Virus record (IMG/VR): IMGVR_UViG_3300028394_000351
Span: 1 to 21,576 of that record
DNA length: 21,576 nucleotides
Strand: one strand, 5' to 3'
Origin: a virus
Below the pieces are notes generated by a model that saw nothing but the letters and a program-made list of their open reading frames with translations, had not been told where the DNA came from and did not search any database. Made by a program: the position numbers and the translations under genes. This document shows, one piece after another, positions 1,200 through 18,173 of the stretch. Position 1 is the first letter of the stretch. Each line of letters begins with the position of its first letter.

Positions 1200-2114
1200 A
1201 TGACCCTGCGAGAACTACTGCTAGACCGAGTCGCGCCGCTGAAGAATCTGTGCGACAGGACCGTTGCCATGTACGAGGCAACGCTCGACCGATTCCGCGA
1301 CTTTCTGGGCCACGAGCCGACCGTCGATGATCTCGACGACCTGACCGCGGCCAAGTTCCTGCGCTGGCGTCAGACGACGCAGCATAGCAGGTTCAAGATG
1401 ATTAGCCCGGCGAGCCTCGCAAAAGACTCTGCCCACCTGCGAAGCCTGTGGACTTGGCTCGCCAAAAAGCGCTGGAAGAAGACCAACGGCGAGCTGCTCG
1501 AGTTCCCCGACTACGCCCGTCCCCGCGTTCCCAAGCCCCGCCCTGTGGCCTACACGGTCGACGAGCTCAGCGCCCTGGTCAGAGCCGCCCGGCATCGCAA
1601 GGGCCTCGTAGCGGGCAAGCCGGCCGCCTGGTACTGGCTGACGAAATTGCAGGCCATGTTCCAGACCGGCGAGCGTATCGGGGCCGTGCTGGCCCTGCGG
1701 TGGCGCGAGGTCGATCTGGAGCGGTGCACCATCACGTTTCTCGCAGCAACCCGCAAGGGCCGCCAGGAGACGATTACGCGGCAGATCACGCCCGAGCTGG
1801 CCCGGCTCATGGCTGTGCATCAAGGCCCGGCGGACGCCCTGGTATGGCCTTGGCTGGAGGATCGGAAGATTTTGAGCTGCTATGCCAGCCTCAAGGTGCT
1901 GTGCCGCACGGCCGGGGTCCCGTACCACCCGTTTCACAGCATCCGCAAATCGACTGCGTCATACCTCAAGCTGGCCGGCAAGTCGGCCAAGAAACAGCTC
2001 GGGCACTCCTCTGAGGAAATGGCCGAGACCCACTACTACGACGAGCGAATCACCGGGGTCGAGTCGGCCCTCGACTTCCTGCCGCCGCTAGACCTGACCG
2101 GGCCGGGTACCTAG
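1200..2114 (+). CDS. int: tyrosine recombinase / phage integrase
   Basis: This 304-aa protein has the usual integrase length and would catalyse site-specific integration and excision. Residues about 15-100 form a SAM-like core-binding domain (YEATLDRFRDFLG, then LAKDSAHLRSLWTWLAKKRW). The catalytic domain follows from about 117. The catalytic set is visible: Arg159 in GERIG, Lys186 in TRKGR, His246 and Arg249 in FHSIR, His269 in GHSS, and the nucleophile Tyr279 or Tyr280 in THYYDE. AAGGAG lies 9 nt before the ATG. It is the only clear plus-strand gene of the window and converges on the methyltransferase, sharing a CTAG with its stop. It has no long N-terminal arm-binding domain beyond the core, so arm binding may be limited. 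An attachment site was not identified. Confidence 0.93.
   Translation: MTLRELLLDRVAPLKNLCDRTVAMYEATLDRFRDFLGHEPTVDDLDDLTAAKFLRWRQTTQHSRFKMISPASLAKDSAHLRSLWTWLAKKRWKKTNGELLEFPDYARPRVPKPRPVAYTVDELSALVRAARHRKGLVAGKPAAWYWLTKLQAMFQTGERIGAVLALRWREVDLERCTITFLAATRKGRQETITRQITPELARLMAVHQGPADALVWPWLEDRKILSCYASLKVLCRTAGVPYHPFHSIRKSTASYLKLAGKSAKKQLGHSSEEMAETHYYDERITGVESALDFLPPLDLTGPGT
2111..2114. other. CTAG palindrome used as stop codon on both strands
   Basis: The integrase stop is TAG at 2112-2114. The methyltransferase stop is TAG read from 2113 to 2111. The palindrome CTAG therefore closes both convergent genes with no intergenic space, leaving no room for a terminator between them. Confidence 0.9.
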
Positions 2115-3397
2115 AACAGCGTGTCCTTTGGAGTGGCTGCAGTGATCCTCGCCTTCGCGATCTCAACGTATTCCGCCTCGCGTTCGATGCCGATGAACCG
2201 GAAGCCCTCGGCCACGGCTGCTTTGCCCGTGGAGCCGGAGCCCGCGAACGGGTCGAGCACTACGCCGCCGCGTGGCGTCACGAGCCGGCAGAGGTAACGC
2301 ATGAGGGCGGTGGGCTTGACGGTGGGGTGATGGTTGCCTCGCGGCCGTGGTTTCATCTCGCGCGGCTCGTTCGTGTAGGGCAGCGTTCCGTGCCGCTTGT
2401 CGCCGTGGGCCACACTCTGCTTGATCGTCTGCGGAAGCCCCTCGCACCCTTCATCCCGATCCGCCTTCGACGCTTTCGCGCAGTAGAAGAAGCGGGCGGC
2501 GGAGCCAAAGTCGTGATGGCCTTTACCACCAGGCCGCGTCCAGCCGCCTGCGTAACCAGGCTGCGATTCGCTGGTGGCGTTCTGGCCTCCGCTCTTTGTG
2601 ACCGGAAACAGCCCCACCACCTCCTCGCTGCCGTCGTGGATCAGGTTGGCGGGCCAGCGGCCTGTGCCAGCTTCGTCCTTTGCTTCACGTTCGTAGTTCG
2701 CGCCGCTCATGGATCGATCTTCGCCGGCCTTGCTGCCGGTCTTACTCCAGCCGCTCTCATTTTGTGTTCGCACACCCACCCTACACCCATCCACATTGAT
2801 CCCGCCCGTGCCCCACGTCAACACATTCTCCGCCACCGTTCCGGGCAGCGGTTTGCGGGCCACGATGATCGGCTCCCATGCGGGCTTGAGGGCCGTGCCC
2901 CAGCCGGACCACTGGCGGGCGGCGTTGGTGGCGGGGGTGGTTGCCATCGTGGTGCCAGAGTGATCGAAGCCGCAGTAGCTTCCGCCGTGAGCAACGCCGG
3001 AATGATTCTGAATATGCCCGCCGGCGTACACCTTCGGGCCGGCTGTCTCCCGCTCCGCCCCAGCCGCCTTGTCAATCGCCTTGCTCACGTCGTGCGACTT
3101 CGGAAAGCCGCTGCCGTACACCCACATCACACAATCCCGAATCTCCCAGCCCGCATCTTCGATGGCACACGCGAGCCGGTGATAGGTGCGAGTCCCGCCA
3201 AACGCCAGCAGGTGCGCGCCGGGCTTCGCGACTCGTAACGCCTCCGCCCAAAACGATTGGCCAGGTACACCGTGATCCCAGCCCTTGCCCATGAACGACA
3301 GCCCATAGGGCGGGTCGCAGACGATCGCGTCAACGCTCTCGGCGTTGAGTGTCGCCATGACTTCGCGGCAGTCGCCGTGGTGAATCGTCCATGACAT
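2111..3397 (-). CDS. DNA methyltransferase, beta-type order (DPPY then FxGxG)
   Basis: The 428-aa protein is a SAM-dependent DNA amino-methyltransferase, for N6-adenine or N4-cytosine. The catalytic DPPY is at residues 28-31 (VDAIVCDPPYG). The SAM-binding DPFAGSG is at about 382-388, followed by GFRFIGIEREAEYVEIAKARI. Catalytic motif before SAM motif is the beta-class order. The middle (about 120-340) holds a variable target-recognition region with many Gly and His. No restriction endonuclease lies beside it, so it is probably an orphan phage methylase that protects or marks phage DNA. It is the last gene of the minus-strand block, separated by 94 bp from the preceding 63-aa gene. No strong ribosome binding site precedes the ATG at 3397. 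The recognition sequence cannot be predicted. Confidence 0.92.
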   Translation of the reverse strand: MSWTIHHGDCREVMATLNAESVDAIVCDPPYGLSFMGKGWDHGVPGQSFWAEALRVAKPGAHLLAFGGTRTYHRLACAIEDAGWEIRDCVMWVYGSGFPKSHDVSKAIDKAAGAERETAGPKVYAGGHIQNHSGVAHGGSYCGFDHSGTTMATTPATNAARQWSGWGTALKPAWEPIIVARKPLPGTVAENVLTWGTGGINVDGCRVGVRTQNESGWSKTGSKAGEDRSMSGANYEREAKDEAGTGRWPANLIHDGSEEVVGLFPVTKSGGQNATSESQPGYAGGWTRPGGKGHHDFGSAARFFYCAKASKADRDEGCEGLPQTIKQSVAHGDKRHGTLPYTNEPREMKPRPRGNHHPTVKPTALMRYLCRLVTPRGGVVLDPFAGSGSTGKAAVAEGFRFIGIEREAEYVEIAKARITAATPKDTLF

Positions 3398-7899: not shown

Positions 7900-8763
7900 T
7901 TACGGTTGAGTTGGTTGCCCGAAGTAGTCGTTAAATGGCACTTCTCGCTGCACCCGTCGCTCAAGGATGTCGGGAGCACCAGACTTGATCGTGCCGTCTG
8001 TGTTCAGAGGTTGCGGGTTACTTGATGGCACCCGCTCGCTGGTGTCGGGATCGACGACGTACGCTCGCTTCTTCGTGCCGCCCTCTAGATAGTTCCAGCC
8101 GACGTTGGGCAGCTGCAGGTTCCACTTGTCGGGCCGATACTCCAGGCTCACCTCGACTTGCCAATACCGAATCTCGGCCTCATTGACAACCTCCACGGCC
8201 GGCTGACCAGAGATACCGCCGCACTTCCAGGTGCCTGGCGGGCCTCCCAGATAGGTGTCGCTGTTGATGCTGTTGGCCACGGCCTGGGCAAGCCCGTAGT
8301 CAAACGTGGCGCGGTTGCCGCTGATGCTGGCCTGCAGCGTTGAAATATCCGTGGTCGCCCCCTCAAAGAAATCGTTCGCAGAGTTTTGCAAGGGCTTGAG
8401 CGTGCCGCCGTCGTAGTAGTACAGAGCAGGCACGCTCAGACCACCGGTGGTCCACTTCCAGATGTCGGGCCGAGCCAAGGGGTTCTGGTCGGGGTTCTGC
8501 TGCTTGGGCAGCTCGTAGTCCCACGTCACCTCATAGTGCCAACGGGAGCCGCTGTAGTTGCTCACCGAAGCATTCATCGCCAAGCAGTAGAACGCCTCGG
8601 GGTGAGGGTTCAGGAACGAAACGCCAGGTGCGTTAACGATGTCGGTCTGCGGCGTGGTCGGGTCATTGACCTCGACCACCCACTTGCGCTGAAAGACAGG
8701 CGGCTCGCCGAACTTTCGGCTTGCCGAGACCGTGGCCAGCTCGGTGTATTTGACGATGCCCAT
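7900..8763 (-). CDS. putative distal tail / baseplate protein
   Basis: The 287-aa protein is encoded directly after the tape measure, sharing one base with its stop (TAATG). In siphoviruses this position holds the distal tail or tail-tip protein. The sequence is rich in aromatic residues and beta strands: WHYEVTWDYELPKQ, RYWQVEVSLEYRPDKWNLQL and GWNYLEGGTKKRAYVV. A C-terminal polar segment has ILERRVQREVPFNDYF. An N-terminal stretch (FGEPPVFQRKWVVEVNDP) suits a ring-forming beta domain. No catalytic motif is visible. The name rests mainly on gene order. Confidence 0.55.
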   Translation of the reverse strand: MGIVKYTELATVSASRKFGEPPVFQRKWVVEVNDPTTPQTDIVNAPGVSFLNPHPEAFYCLAMNASVSNYSGSRWHYEVTWDYELPKQQNPDQNPLARPDIWKWTTGGLSVPALYYYDGGTLKPLQNSANDFFEGATTDISTLQASISGNRATFDYGLAQAVANSINSDTYLGGPPGTWKCGGISGQPAVEVVNEAEIRYWQVEVSLEYRPDKWNLQLPNVGWNYLEGGTKKRAYVVDPDTSERVPSSNPQPLNTDGTIKSGAPDILERRVQREVPFNDYFGQPTQP

Positions 8764-10448
8764 TACGCCGCGGCCCCCAAGATGTCGACCTTCTCCTGCT
8801 GCAGAGCCCGCAACTCCTTGCGGATCTCCTCAAGCTTGGCATTAGCCTTGCGGTTCTCTTCGATCGCTGGATCTTCACGCCCAGTGGCCAAAGCGATGAA
8901 CTGGGCCATACCCTCACTGGAGCGGATGTCGTTCGCCTTCAGGGCCTCGTTGGACTTCCCGTTGAGGGCGGCCGACTTGCCGGCCTCAATCTCTGCAATC
9001 TGCCCTTGCTTGTCCACCATCTTCTCGTCAATGTCGGCCGCTTTCTTGGCTGCCTCGTCTTGACGTTTCTTCGCATCGGCTGCGTCTTTTTCAGCCTTGG
9101 CCTTGGCCGCCGCAGCCTCACGAGCAGCCTTCGCGTCGGCCTCTTTCTGTGCTCGCTCCCGCTCGCGTTCCGCTTTCGCCTCCGGATCGTTCATGCGATT
9201 GCGTGCGTTAGCAACAGCTCGACTCGCTGGGCCTTCGGCACCTTGGGCGGCGTTGCCGCCAAAGATGGCCCGGCCTGCTGCAGTGGCTGCGTTGGATGCA
9301 GCACCTTCCATCTCCCTTGAGTTCTGGTCGGCCTGCTCCTTGGCATTCGCCGCCAAGTCCTTGCCGAACTGCTCAAGGTCGCTCGACACCCACGAGCCAA
9401 TGCCTTCCAAGAACTTGCCCAAGCCCATGGCCAGCACGTTGCCGGAGATTTGGAACAAGTTAAACCCTGCCCGCAGCGTCTCGGCCACGGCCGTGAACAC
9501 GTTGCCCGCAAACTCAAACACGGCTCCTACTTCCGACAGAGTCACCCCAAACCCGTCAAACGATGCCATGGCATTGTCAAAGATTCCGGCGAAGTAGTCG
9601 GCCACGTCCAGCAGGGCGTTTGAAATCGTGTCGGCAATCGTGCCGTTCTGTCCGCCGATGTTGTTCCACTCTTCGACGAACGCCAAGAAATCATTGGCAA
9701 GAGACTCGACAACCGGCGCGAGGTTGCCGACGACCTGGCCGACGATGCCTTCAAAGGTTGCCTTCACCATGTCTAAGGCGTCGTTCATTGAGCCGATAGC
9801 CTCGACTTGATCCGCACCGACAACGGCACCGAGCCGACGCATCCGCTCTTCTACCTCGGCCAGGTTCTGGTTCATCAAGGGAAGAAGCTCGACGCCTGAC
9901 TTGCCGAACAAGGACACGGCAGCCGCAGCCCGCTCGGCCGGCGTCGACAGCGCGGAGATTGCCTGCTGGATGGCTCGGAACTGCTCCTCTGGCGACATGG
10001 CCTGCAGCTGCTCAAAGTCCAGGCCAAGCTTGGTGAACGCTTCGGTGTTGCCGCTTTCGGCGGCCTGCCCGATCACGGTCGTTAGTTTTTGCAGCGCCGC
10101 CGCGCCGTTCTCCACGCCAGCCAGACTGGCTGCCATGTCGAAGACTTGCAGAGATTCCACGCCAATTCCAATGCGATCGGATAAATCGTTCATGGCGTCA
10201 ACAGATGACGCCACGGAAGATGCGTAGTTAAAAGCCGTGCTCGCAGCGGACGTGAACGCATTCGCTGCCATTCCGACACCCTTGGCCACCACTGAGCCAA
10301 TGGCAAGAGTTTTTAAAGCGCCGACGTCGCGAGAAACCTTTTTTGCAGCGTCGCCAATTTTGTCCAATTGCTTAACGGCTTCGTTAACGCCGCCAGCCAT
10401 CTTGGCGGCGTTAGCCGACAGCGTAAAACCGATACCGATCGTGGCCAT
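8763..10448 (-). CDS. tail tape measure protein
   Basis: The 561-aa protein sets tail length and occupies the tail lumen before DNA ejection. It is the longest tail gene and follows the frameshifted chaperone by 3 bp, which is the diagnostic order. The N-terminus (GFTLSANAAKMAGGVNEAVK) and the Ala/Gly-rich helices of residues 40-130 are typical. A hydrophobic middle (about 230-350) may be membrane-active. Residues about 425-490 are an almost pure Ala/Glu/Lys/Arg coiled coil, and a second charged helix ends the protein (ENRKANAKLEEIRKELRALQ). At about 1.5 angstrom per residue this would correspond to a short tail of roughly 80-90 nm. That figure is a rule-of-thumb inference. Confidence 0.88.
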   Translation of the reverse strand: MATIGIGFTLSANAAKMAGGVNEAVKQLDKIGDAAKKVSRDVGALKTLAIGSVVAKGVGMAANAFTSAASTAFNYASSVASSVDAMNDLSDRIGIGVESLQVFDMAASLAGVENGAAALQKLTTVIGQAAESGNTEAFTKLGLDFEQLQAMSPEEQFRAIQQAISALSTPAERAAAAVSLFGKSGVELLPLMNQNLAEVEERMRRLGAVVGADQVEAIGSMNDALDMVKATFEGIVGQVVGNLAPVVESLANDFLAFVEEWNNIGGQNGTIADTISNALLDVADYFAGIFDNAMASFDGFGVTLSEVGAVFEFAGNVFTAVAETLRAGFNLFQISGNVLAMGLGKFLEGIGSWVSSDLEQFGKDLAANAKEQADQNSREMEGAASNAATAAGRAIFGGNAAQGAEGPASRAVANARNRMNDPEAKAERERERAQKEADAKAAREAAAAKAKAEKDAADAKKRQDEAAKKAADIDEKMVDKQGQIAEIEAGKSAALNGKSNEALKANDIRSSEGMAQFIALATGREDPAIEENRKANAKLEEIRKELRALQQEKVDILGAAA

Positions 10449-10451
10449 GCG

Positions 10452-10748
10452 TCACCGACTGAGTTTGCTGAGTTCCGCTGCAATCTGTTCTGGCGTCATT
10501 GGCGGTTTGGCAATCGGCATGAAATCGTCTTCCCTCGGCGGCCTGCCTCGTCCGCAATATGGGGCCAATGTTGCGGCCACGATTCGTGCTGTCTGTCGCC
10601 ACTCGCCGCCCAAAGGATTAACGTACCGATGAAATGCCAACCATCTCCGATACTCAGTAACGTCCATGCGTTGCCCGAGCTCCCGCACCGTCATGCCCAG
10701 GTGACCGGCCAGCAGCAGCGGGAACGCATCCAGCGGCCGGTCAATCAG
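10452..10748 (-). CDS. tail assembly chaperone, frameshift-only C-terminal part (gpT-like)
   Basis: This segment is entered by -1 frameshifting at 10748-10754 and continues the upstream chaperone frame. It reads LIDRPLDAFPLLLAGHLGMT, then VRELGQRMDVTEYRRWLAFH and NPLGGEWRQ, and ends PPMTPEQIAAELSKLSR. The block LAGHLGMTVREL....YRRWLAF is what I expect of gpT-type chaperone extensions, which recruit tail tube subunits and the tape measure. An ATG at 10694 exists, but a separate start there would cut off conserved residues encoded upstream. The full product would be about 208 aa (110 plus 98). It ends 3 bp before the tape measure gene. Confidence 0.82.
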   Translation of the reverse strand: MIDRPLDAFPLLLAGHLGMTVRELGQRMDVTEYRRWLAFHRYVNPLGGEWRQTARIVAATLAPYCGRGRPPREDDFMPIAKPPMTPEQIAAELSKLSR

Positions 10749-10754
10749 TTTTTT
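10703..10754 (-). promoter_or_regulatory. programmed -1 ribosomal frameshift signal
   Basis: On the minus strand the heptamer A AAA AAC (10754-10748) is in the correct phase with the upstream frame (GGA AAA AAC TGA). A 5-nt spacer is followed by an 8-bp perfect inverted repeat, GACCGGCC (10742-10735) and GGCCGGTC (10710-10703), around a 24-nt loop. Slipping back one base reads CTG ATT GAC and continues to the stop at 10452. This is a textbook slippery-site-plus-stem arrangement. Confidence 0.88.
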
Positions 10755-11077
10755 CCAATCTCCTCGATGTCTTTCTCGTCAAGCTCGTTGTGCTTCTGAG
10801 CGATTTTGAACAACCGAGCCCCGACAGTGCCGCTGATTCTCTTGAGCTGGTCGCTCGTGAAGATCTCGACGCCACGATCGTCCACAAGGCACTTGGCCAG
10901 GTAGCGGGTGCGGTAGTCGTCCACGCCCTCACCCTTGGCTCTCAGGCACGCCAGCTCCCACGCCTGCAAGTCACCAAGGGGCAACGCCCGGATGAACACG
11001 TCACGCTTCCATTCAGGGACGTGAACTCGCACGCTCGCGTCGCTGTCCACCGCCAGGATCTCGTCGGCTAGTCCCAC
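10745..11077 (-). CDS. tail assembly chaperone, short form (gpG-like)
   Basis: The 110-aa protein starts at a GTG (11077) with AGGAG about 8 nt upstream, one base after the preceding stop. It is mostly helical with charged segments: EWKRDVFIRALPLGDLQAWE, then CLRAKGEGVDDYRTRYLAKC, ending ELDEKDIEEIGKN. Length, position between tail tube and tape measure, and the slippery sequence at its last codons identify it as the siphovirus tail assembly chaperone. Its 3' end carries A AAA AAC immediately before the TGA. The short form should be the abundant product, and a minority of ribosomes would make the long form. Confidence 0.85.
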   Translation of the reverse strand: MGLADEILAVDSDASVRVHVPEWKRDVFIRALPLGDLQAWELACLRAKGEGVDDYRTRYLAKCLVDDRGVEIFTSDQLKRISGTVGARLFKIAQKHNELDEKDIEEIGKN

Positions 11078-11078
11078 G

Positions 11079-11432
11079 TCACGCTCCTACCTTGAACGAC
11101 ACGGAGTACAGCTGCAGCTCGCCCACGCTTGCCGACCATCCGAGGTTCTGAAAAATGGCCTTGGAAAACGAGAACGAGATGCCAGTGCCAGTGATAGATA
11201 ACGCAGCCGTCAAGCCGACGTTGGTGCTGGACATCGCGGCCGACCCGCGAAGAGTGCACGAGATGCTGCCGAGATCGACGTCGGCAGGCGAGAACGACTT
11301 AATGCGAGACGCTTGCGTGCGGGGCGTGACTTCGACGGCATCAGACGAGATGCCATCGACGCTGACGCTCACGAGCTCGCCGAGCGTTACGCCATTCCAG
11401 GTGACGGTCGTGCCCTGCGTTACGTTTGCCAC
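11079..11432 (-). CDS. tail tube-like protein 2
   Basis: The 117-aa protein starts at a GTG (11432) with GGGAGG 6 nt before it. The sequence is beta-rich: TVTWNGVTLGELVSVSVDG, then DVDLGSISCTLRG, and ends SVGELQLYSVSFKVGA. It shares a general layout with the gene just upstream: GxT......VSV, then a LxxxxISCxxxG strand, and a C-terminal GEL...S.xFKV. Both lie where the major tail protein belongs, before the chaperone. It may be a tail tube subunit or an Ig-like tube decoration. The length is at the short end for a tube protein. Confidence 0.65.
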   Translation of the reverse strand: MANVTQGTTVTWNGVTLGELVSVSVDGISSDAVEVTPRTQASRIKSFSPADVDLGSISCTLRGSAAMSSTNVGLTAALSITGTGISFSFSKAIFQNLGWSASVGELQLYSVSFKVGA

Positions 11433-11447
11433 GACGGCCTCCCGTCG

Positions 11448-11774
11448 TTAGCTCTTGACCTTGAAAGTCAGGGACTGCTTGACCAGCTCGCCCACAGAGT
11501 AGGCCACGCTCGAAGACGAGACCGTGGCGGTGTACGTCGCGGCGGCGAACGACAGCACGCCAGATGCGCCAATCGCCACCGCCGTCACGCCGTACGCCTC
11601 GCAGCTGATCTCATTGTCGATAAGCGCCGGCGACTGATAGGTGCGATTGGCACCGCTGGCCAATCCGAGGTGCGAGTTGTCGAGCAGGTCTCCGCCCGGC
11701 GTCACGGTGACGCTGGTGACGGTGTACGTCGAGCCCGCGAAAACGAAGTTACTGCCCTGCGAATCTGCGGCCAT
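11448..11774 (-). CDS. tail tube-like protein 1
   Basis: The 108-aa protein starts at the ATG at 11774 with AGGAGA 8 nt upstream. The start is preceded by a 77-bp gap containing a hairpin. The sequence (FAGSTYTVTSVTVTPGGDLL, DNEISCEAYGVTAVAIGASG, VGELVKQSLTFKVKS) is beta-rich and similar in outline to the next gene. A strong ribosome binding site and dedicated leader suggest high expression, as expected of the main tube protein. Which of the two forms the tube, or whether both do, is not decidable from sequence alone. Confidence 0.65.
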   Translation of the reverse strand: MAADSQGSNFVFAGSTYTVTSVTVTPGGDLLDNSHLGLASGANRTYQSPALIDNEISCEAYGVTAVAIGASGVLSFAAATYTATVSSSSVAYSVGELVKQSLTFKVKS

Positions 11775-14032: not shown

Positions 14033-14250
14033 CGGGCCTTCCTCCCTCTACGCCGCGTGGCGTCGGCCGTTTCAGCGGCCCGGTTCTCCACCATCGCCAC
14101 CTCGAGCAGCTGCGGCTCGTCGGCGACGATCTCGACCGCCCCGGCGATGACGAGCGACTTCGCCGGCCCCTTTGGATATTCAATGATGTCGCCCTTGCGG
14201 TACGCACCGTGGGGCCGCAGGAACCGCAGGCGGACGTGGTCAGGTTGCAT
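14029..14250 (-). CDS. small hypothetical protein in connector region, 73 aa
   Basis: The 73-aa protein overlaps the end of the glycosyltransferase gene by 11 bp. The first 50 residues form a compact KOW/SH3-like pattern: VRLRFLRPHGAYRKGDIIEY, then PKGPAKSLVIAGAVEIV. The tail is basic and probably disordered (TADATRRRGRKAR). Small proteins with a KGDIIEYP...L...G.AEIV pattern are common in the head-connector region of siphoviruses. Its role is unknown and may be structural. Confidence 0.7.
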   Translation of the reverse strand: MQPDHVRLRFLRPHGAYRKGDIIEYPKGPAKSLVIAGAVEIVADEPQLLEVAMVENRAAETADATRRRGRKAR

Positions 14251-15007
14251 TGCTGGCGTCTCCGTGCTCGACAGATCCCCACGCCTCGGCCGGGCGACGT
14301 CCGCCCTGACTCCAGTAGTGGCTGGGTGTTTGGTAGACGGGTTTCAAGTCGCGGCCCGGCCACGTGAACTTAAGCTCGGCGTGGCCAATCGCCACCTGCG
14401 GGGCAATGCCCAGCGTGTTGCCGGCTGCCTTGAACTGCTTCCAGAAGTGAATATCGGGGTCCACGCGAGTCACTTCGCCAGCAGGGGCATCGCCCCAGTG
14501 GCCATCCGGCCGCGGCGTACCGAGGAACCACGGGGATGGCGTGCGCTTCAACGCCTCGCTGCGGATGAGCGTGCACCCGAAGTGAGCGGTCGCCACCGGC
14601 TGCACCACCGCCTCGAACCACGTATTGGGCAGCTGCACCAGGCCGATGGTGCCGTCGTGCCCCTCGGGCGTGAACATGGGCACGCCTTCGTCTCGCTTCG
14701 TCTGCAGCGGGGCCACGGCGTCAAACCCGCTGACCATGGCTGCGGTCATCAGCCGCTGGATGGTGTCGGCCTCAAAGACGCTGTCAAAGTCGATGACAAG
14801 CACCCAGTCGGTGCGTTCAATCATGTCGAGCAGCACACGATCAAGGCACTGTTCCCAGAACGCCCCGGTGAACTTGGTCGGCCGGATGCCGAGCGGCATG
14901 AGGCTCTGCATGGTGCAAAAGAAATTGTCCTGAAAACCCAAGCGAGGCACGCTGAACGCGGCCTCCACTCGCAGGTCGTGCTGCACGTTGCCGACGGAAA
15001 CTTTCAC
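14240..15007 (-). CDS. GT-A type glycosyltransferase within the head module
   Basis: The 255-aa protein starts at a GTG (15007) with GAGGGA about 8 nt upstream. GT-A features are visible: DWVLVIDFDSVFEADTIQRL with the DxD-type loop (Asp73, Asp75), the acceptor-side strand ATAHFGCTLIRSEALKR (140-156), and VDPDIHFWKQFKAAGNTLGI (182-201), followed by VAIGH. The last matches the ED-x(n)-R-x-x-x-G block of GT2 enzymes. The N-terminus lacks a full leading VxVxxPxYNR motif, having VPRLGFQDNFFCTMQSL instead. It could glycosylate a capsid, tail or host surface component. The sugar and acceptor are unknown. It sits between decoration-like and connector genes, an unusual place for an enzyme. Confidence 0.8.
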   Translation of the reverse strand: MKVSVGNVQHDLRVEAAFSVPRLGFQDNFFCTMQSLMPLGIRPTKFTGAFWEQCLDRVLLDMIERTDWVLVIDFDSVFEADTIQRLMTAAMVSGFDAVAPLQTKRDEGVPMFTPEGHDGTIGLVQLPNTWFEAVVQPVATAHFGCTLIRSEALKRTPSPWFLGTPRPDGHWGDAPAGEVTRVDPDIHFWKQFKAAGNTLGIAPQVAIGHAELKFTWPGRDLKPVYQTPSHYWSQGGRRPAEAWGSVEHGDASNAT

Positions 15008-17047: not shown

Positions 17048-17224
17048 CTAGTTAGGCAACGAGCGGCGGCGGATCTCGCACGACTTCACGACGTGCTTGG
17101 CCGTCTGGCGGCAGTGAGGGCACCGCAAGTACCGCGTGCACACGTCGCCCTTCTCGACTGACGAGTACACGCCGAACCGTGCACGCCGGCAGTGGTGGCA
17201 AACGTCACCCGACTTTGTGGCCAT
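17048..17224 (-). CDS. small zinc-ribbon protein, 58 aa
   Basis: This very short gene starts at the ATG at 17224, overlapping the protease stop by 20 bp, and ends with TAG at 17048. The product is a compact two-knuckle zinc ribbon: CHHC at residues 9-12 and CPHC at 35-38, with further Cys at 29 and 49. It reads MATKSGDVCHHCRRARFGVY, then VEKGDVCTRYLRCPHCRQTA, and ends in basic IRRRSLPN. The spacing of the two CxxC pairs (22 residues between) is typical of nucleic-acid or protein binding ribbons such as DksA or Com-like phage proteins. Placement between protease and capsid suggests a regulatory or assembly role, but none is known. Confidence 0.72.
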   Translation of the reverse strand: MATKSGDVCHHCRRARFGVYSSVEKGDVCTRYLRCPHCRQTAKHVVKSCEIRRRSLPN

Positions 17225-18173
17225 GCTGCCTCAAAAACCTGCGGATCTCATGCTCCAGTTTCGCGTCCCGCCTGAGAGCCGGCAGCTTTAGCGCCGGTCG
17301 GTGCGATTTCAGATGCTGTTCCAGTGAGCGAACCGCCACGCTTGTGTCTCGGTACGCCGGCGTCAGCACAGGGCCGACGTCGTAGAGACCGTCGATTGAG
17401 CGAATGTACCGAAGGTGCCCTCCGTTCTCGTCGGTTGTCCACTCATCGTCCTGCGTCGTGAACGCGAACGACGAGCCGTACACGTCGCCACGCCGAATCA
17501 GCTCGAGCACGTCGCCACGCGACGCCGGCGGGTCGATCTCGTAGCCCAGGCCGTTGTCCATCGCAGCCAGCCGAAGCGTGCCCGCGCGCTCGGTACCGAG
17601 AATCATGTTGTTGTCGTGGTTGAACAGTCCGACCACCGATCGACTGTCGGCTTTCATCACCGAGTCAAACGCCCCGGGGAGGATCTCTTCGGTGAACCCG
17701 CCAAGATTGACAGAGCGGACCCCGTAGCACGCGGCCATGCCGCGAATCATCACCTTGCCGTCGTCGCGGGTCTCCACGCTCAGCGGCAGCGGTAGGTCGC
17801 GGCGCTCGATACCCATGGTGTCACTCCTTTCGTTTTCGTCTGCGGCGTTCATTTGTCGCACCAGTTTTTTGCTCCATGAATACCCCGAGTCTCCACCCCA
17901 TAGTTTGTGCGCTATGAGGCCGTTCGACGGGTATCCCGGCTCCCCCGGACTCCAGCCCTCCCCCTGCCTGTCCACTTGATGTCGGTCGAAGAACGCTTTC
18001 ATCCTGCGTGCCGTCTCGGGGCTGATCGTCACACCGTTGCTCAGGTCTCTTGCGCGAGCCACGCCGACTGCCGTGCCTCCTCGTCCGAACTCTTTTCGCC
18101 AATCGAGCCCTTTCTGTGCTTCGGCCCGCACGCCGGCCGGCGGCGTGAAGTCAATCGCGTCGTACTTAGCCAT
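17205..18173 (-). CDS. prohead protease (HK97 gp4/S78-like) with extra N-terminal domain
   Basis: The 322-aa protein is a fusion. Residues about 10-110 are a conserved module (KGLDWRKEFGRGGTAVGVAR, ARDLSNGVTISPETARRM, FFDRHQVDRQ, GYPSNGLIAHKLWGGDSG). I recall this module from other phage and prophage proteins, often linked to head maturation. Residues about 120-290 are the serine protease: GMAACYGV, FTEEILPGAFD, catalytic His186 in LFNHD and catalytic Ser235 in YGSSFAF, then VGPVLTPAYRDTSVAVRS. It cleaves capsid delta domains and itself. The start overlaps the portal stop by 8 bp. A strong AAGGAG site precedes Met120 (17816), so a protease-only product of 203 aa is also likely. Confidence 0.88.
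   Translation of the reverse strand: MAKYDAIDFTPPAGVRAEAQKGLDWRKEFGRGGTAVGVARARDLSNGVTISPETARRMKAFFDRHQVDRQGEGWSPGEPGYPSNGLIAHKLWGGDSGYSWSKKLVRQMNAADENERSDTMGIERRDLPLPLSVETRDDGKVMIRGMAACYGVRSVNLGGFTEEILPGAFDSVMKADSRSVVGLFNHDNNMILGTERAGTLRLAAMDNGLGYEIDPPASRGDVLELIRRGDVYGSSFAFTTQDDEWTTDENGGHLRYIRSIDGLYDVGPVLTPAYRDTSVAVRSLEQHLKSHRPALKLPALRRDAKLEHEIRRFLRQHGHKVG
17816..17833 (-). promoter_or_regulatory. strong internal ribosome binding site inside the prohead protease gene
   Basis: On the minus strand AAAGGAG lies about 8 nt before an in-frame ATG at 17816 (Met120). The downstream sequence begins MGIERRDLPLPLSVETRDDG, exactly where the S78 protease domain starts. This is a better ribosome binding site than the one before the full-length start. 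Confidence 0.65.

Follow-up and report, generated by a model that had tools for sequence, protein, structure and literature searches.

Frameshifting in known tail assembly chaperone genes

In phage lambda the G and GT products reportedly arise by a programmed -1 frameshift, which is said to have been described by Levin in 1993 and by Xu, Hendrix and Duda in 2004, and the lambda heptamer is G GGA AAG. The two lambda products are made at about 30:1 and this ratio matters for tail assembly (PMC5009743). The heptamer AAAAAAC has been found in the tail chaperone gene of the haloarchaeal virus HCTV-2 (PMC5009743) and, according to the available excerpts of two further reports, at the tail chaperone frameshift of the Caulobacter phage phiCbK group (PMC3556154) and of Acinetobacter phage Loki, where it adjoins the stop codon (PMC5313236); the descriptions in these excerpts make no mention of a stem. 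In the Streptomyces phages phiSASD1 (gp35/gp35.1) and Dubu (gp13/gp14) a joined CDS is already annotated at GGGAAACTGA.

The locus described here lies on the minus strand of a 21.6-kb virus record (IMGVR_UViG_3300028394_000351; the window is the whole analysed stretch of 21,576 nucleotides), in a siphovirus-like structural module with terminase, portal, protease, capsid, connectors, tail proteins and tape measure. It occupies the interval between the small tail ORFs and the tape measure gene and has the following features:

10745..11077, minus strand: zero-frame ORF for a gpG-like tail assembly chaperone, 110 codons, GTG start
10748..10754, minus strand: slippery heptamer A AAA AAC, in phase with the zero frame
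10745..10747, minus strand: zero-frame stop TGA, directly 3' of the heptamer
10747-10743, minus strand: spacer TGATT between heptamer and stem, 5 nt
10703..10742, minus strand: downstream stem-loop, 8-bp stem and 24-nt loop, 5 nt after the heptamer
10742-10735, minus strand: 5' arm of the stem, GACCGGCC
10710-10703, minus strand: 3' arm of the stem, GGCCGGTC
10452..10748, minus strand: gpT-like -1-frame extension, from CTG ATT GAC CGG to TGA, 98 codons plus stop
8763..10448, minus strand: tape measure protein for tail length, of 561 aa, with matches to PHROG tape measure families (lowest E 3.4e-25)

An AGGAG is located about 7 nt 5' of the GTG start of the chaperone ORF, and the zero frame ends, on the minus strand, with GAG GAG ATT GGA AAA AAC TGA. 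The first-pass annotation of this DNA had placed an in-phase A AAA AAC at the last two sense codons, and the heptamer is indeed found there (10754-10748). It had also proposed an open, gpT-like -1 frame ending 3 bp before the tape measure gene and a fusion protein of 208 aa; both hold, with the -1-frame stop at 10452, the tape measure ATG at 10448 and a predicted fusion of 110+98 aa whose halves match chaperone and gpT profiles respectively. ORF calling likewise bore out its warning that a caller working frame by frame would start the second ORF at 10694, the first ATG of the -1 frame.

As in lambda, the chaperone gene stands directly before the tape measure gene, the heptamer lies near the end of the short frame, the -1 extension is of the gpT type (Pfam Phage_tail_T) and one gene would give two products, the second of which is predicted here. 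The locus differs from lambda in its heptamer, A AAA AAC in place of G GGA AAG, in the position of the stop, which adjoins the heptamer, and in its strong conserved stem-loop 5 nt downstream. The genes of phiSASD1 and Dubu are homologous in the G half (29% and 28% identity) and in the T half, which is 39% identical to the one described here; they share the TGA directly after the heptamer but their heptamer is G GGA AAC. The phiCbK group and Loki are likened to this locus by heptamer and place, and not by sequence relationship.

Homology of the two halves

The zero-frame ORF matches PHROG 344, tail assembly chaperone, with an E-value of 1.9e-15, and Pfam Phage_TAC_13 weakly, below the cut-off. 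The -1 extension matches PHROG 337, tail protein (E 1.6e-15), and Pfam PF06223 Phage_tail_T, the lambda gpT family (29.5 bits against a cut-off of 25.9). The G-like half is followed by the T-like half, in the canonical order and directly upstream of the tape measure gene, and distant homologues in annotated phages carry the tail assembly chaperone label. Together with gene order, these matches support the assignment to a lambda G/GT-like chaperone made in the first-pass annotation: chaperone homology, gpT homology, adjacency to the tape measure gene and a conserved in-phase X XXY YYZ heptamer were all found. A search for the host, in which the gpT half was compared with genome contigs, returned distant matches only, to one Streptomyces and one SAR92 genome.

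Conservation of the heptamer and the stop codon

The heptamer alone is weak evidence because the window contains four copies of AAAAAAC where 0.91 would be expected; one of the other copies lies out of phase in the protease ORF (17864-17870) and two are on the plus strand. Conservation among relatives provides the decisive evidence for the predicted frameshift signal. Two scans of viral contigs yielded 109 loci with the junction, corresponding to 71 distinct sequences that form two clades with a T-half identity of about 74-100% (outlier L020, 66%) and 50-54%, respectively. AAAAAAC is present in all 71. The zero-frame stop follows the heptamer at once in 68 of them (TGA in 50, TAG in 9 and TAA in 9) and comes one codon later, as TAG, in the other 3; the stop is therefore retained while its identity varies. 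In the larger clade the heptamer fixes Gly as GGA and Lys as AAA, though these make up 17% and 18% of the Gly and Lys codons elsewhere in the gene, and in the sister clade Ala is fixed as GCA (26% elsewhere) and Lys as AAA (19% elsewhere). Synonymous suppression along the fused gene of the larger clade peaks over the heptamer and the stem: every one of the 15 strongest 7-codon windows has its centre within codons 107-126 (numbering from 0).

A relaxed scan for GGNAAAC with similar downstream sequence showed that 45 of the 80 loci examined share the open-frame layout, all with GGGAAAC, which suggests that these loci are a wider related group. In Rhodococcus phage Jflix2 a joined CDS is annotated with a different junction sequence. 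An in-phase G GGT TTC precedes the end of the chaperone frame in this phage (1822-1881) and is a plausible alternative slippery site; the relative REQ1 is without G GGT TTC and is annotated as two genes.

Conservation of the stem-loop

The 5-nt spacer and perfect 8-bp stem described in the first-pass annotation are present in this sequence, and the core of the stem is common to the relatives, but in the sister clade neither its outermost nor its innermost pair is conserved. The perfect 8-bp stem is therefore a property of this clade and not of the wider family. In the alignment of 47 sequences the pairs in columns 15-19 (5 of the 8) form in all 47, and pair 2 is A-U in 30, C-G in 13 and mismatched in 4, these being group-1 sequences with A-G. 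In the sister clade pair 1 is lost in most sequences and pair 8 in all, leaving a stem of 6 bp and, in addition, an inner stem where four sequences have A-U for G-C. Cells with changes on both sides of the stem numbered 13 against 4.7 in shuffles. Paired cells and double-change cells both exceeded all shuffles, and the true register was better than every slid register; kinship among the sequences inflates counts of this kind, and the change from A-U to C-G at pair 2 is largely one event common to a clade. Overall, the stem begins 5 nt after the heptamer, within the distance of about 5-9 nt expected of a stimulatory stem, and its core pairs are retained, with compensatory changes. With the heptamer in 71 of 71 relatives, the comparison of homologues named in the first-pass annotation as a possible refutation thus left its proposal standing.

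Perfect 8-bp stems at the required distance are rare, being found at 0.43% of window positions and in 0.84% of recodings that leave the protein sequence of the gpT start unchanged. The folding energy was unremarkable against shuffles (z = -1.5) and, being non-significant, was dropped as evidence. Stimulation by a Shine-Dalgarno-like GAGGAG located 5 nt before the heptamer was also considered and rejected because GAGGAG is not conserved in relatives, which have CAAGACATAGG and similar sequences.

Translation of the -1 frame upstream of the first ATG

The downstream ORF could in principle be a separate gene with its own start at ATG 10694, the overlap with AAAAAAC being incidental. The ATG is retained in 45 of 46 group-1 and in all group-2 sequences, and automatic callers as well as some actinophage records annotate two genes. 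However, the sequence upstream of the ATG (CTGGCCGGTCACCTGGGC ATG) contains nothing like a Shine-Dalgarno sequence, and the similarity to PHROG 337 starts upstream of it. Moreover, selection acts at the protein level on the 18 codons 5' of the ATG when they are read in the -1 frame, despite the zero-frame stop, and the -1 frame has no start codon ahead of them. For single-base codon differences between the heptamer and the ATG, the synonymous share is 90% in the -1 frame, as against 22% for the zero frame and 2% for the +1 frame; the same stretch in the sister clade gives 93%, 21% and 0%. Since the zero frame is stopped in every relative across this stretch, the synonymous pattern indicates that both translation and selection of the stretch take place in the -1 frame. 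Independent initiation at 10694 cannot account for this. We therefore regard a separate gene as very improbable.

Even less probable is a joining of the frames by RNA polymerase slippage on the A6 run, without involvement of the ribosome. The six-A run is present and invariant in the relatives, but six A is short for polymerase slippage, which in addition needs no final C, no phase, no nearby stop and no stem at a set distance, although the relatives conserve all four. Finally, a sequencing or assembly error that split one gene, for which a six-A homopolymer would be a usual place, has a negligible probability and is refuted by conservation, as the identical split is found in 71 distinct sequences from many metagenomes with a stop that alternates between TGA, TAA and TAG.

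Proposed mechanism

From the sequences compared, the locus is almost certainly a case of programmed -1 frameshifting of the lambda G/GT kind. What the sequences show is the anatomy of the locus, its homology and selection acting on four elements: heptamer, stop, stem and -1 frame. From these we infer slippage itself, its rate, the tRNA step and the roles of the proteins. Most ribosomes would terminate at the TGA after reading GGA AAA AAC, which yields the 110-aa gpG-like protein. The remaining minority would be held by the stem-loop with Lys-tRNA and Asn-tRNA on AAA AAC, the P- and A-site tRNAs would slip back one base onto AAA AAA, and these ribosomes would go on with CTG ATT GAC CGG to make the 208-aa gpG-T fusion. 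If lambda is a guide, the tape measure protein may be coated by the G part, and tail tube subunits may be recruited by the T part.

The rate cannot be predicted from E. coli, because A AAA AAC is reported to be much less slippery there than A AAA AAG (PMC5009743), and frameshift efficiency could be low here unless host tRNAs or the stem compensate. A speculative and rather doubtful extension is that A AAA AAC and an unusually rigid stem 5 nt away set a ratio tuned, in this uncultured phage lineage, to a host whose tRNA-Asn or tRNA-Lys decoding is not E. coli-like.

The mechanism is long known and its understanding is unchanged by this locus, which is a clean new example in an uncultured, unannotated phage family. 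The analysis provides correct gene models for this family, with one joined CDS where callers report two genes, the second truncated, and a large, well-conserved natural data set for frameshifting on A AAA AAC plus a stem in bacteriophages.

Other features of the window

The position of the tail tube gene is taken by two small neighbouring ORFs of similar length (11079-11432 and 11448-11774, both on the minus strand). They resemble each other weakly (BLASTP E 0.04), gave no convincing match to a family in PHROG or Pfam, and may be tail tube paralogues. An ORF of 255 aa (14240-15007, minus strand) lies between the capsid gene and the connector genes, for which ORF no PHROG match was found and whose match to Pfam NTP_transf_3 (E 0.036) is below the cut-off; by eye it looks glycosyltransferase-like, with a DFDS motif, and this would be an unusual place for such a gene. 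The prohead protease (17205-18173, minus strand) carries an extra N-terminal region of about 115 aa that matches PHROG 2859, a family of unknown function. A tyrosine integrase (1200-2114, plus strand) is encoded on the strand opposite to the structural genes, which suggests a temperate phage. The N6/N4 DNA methyltransferase (2111-3397, minus strand) has a long mid-protein insertion relative to the Pfam model.
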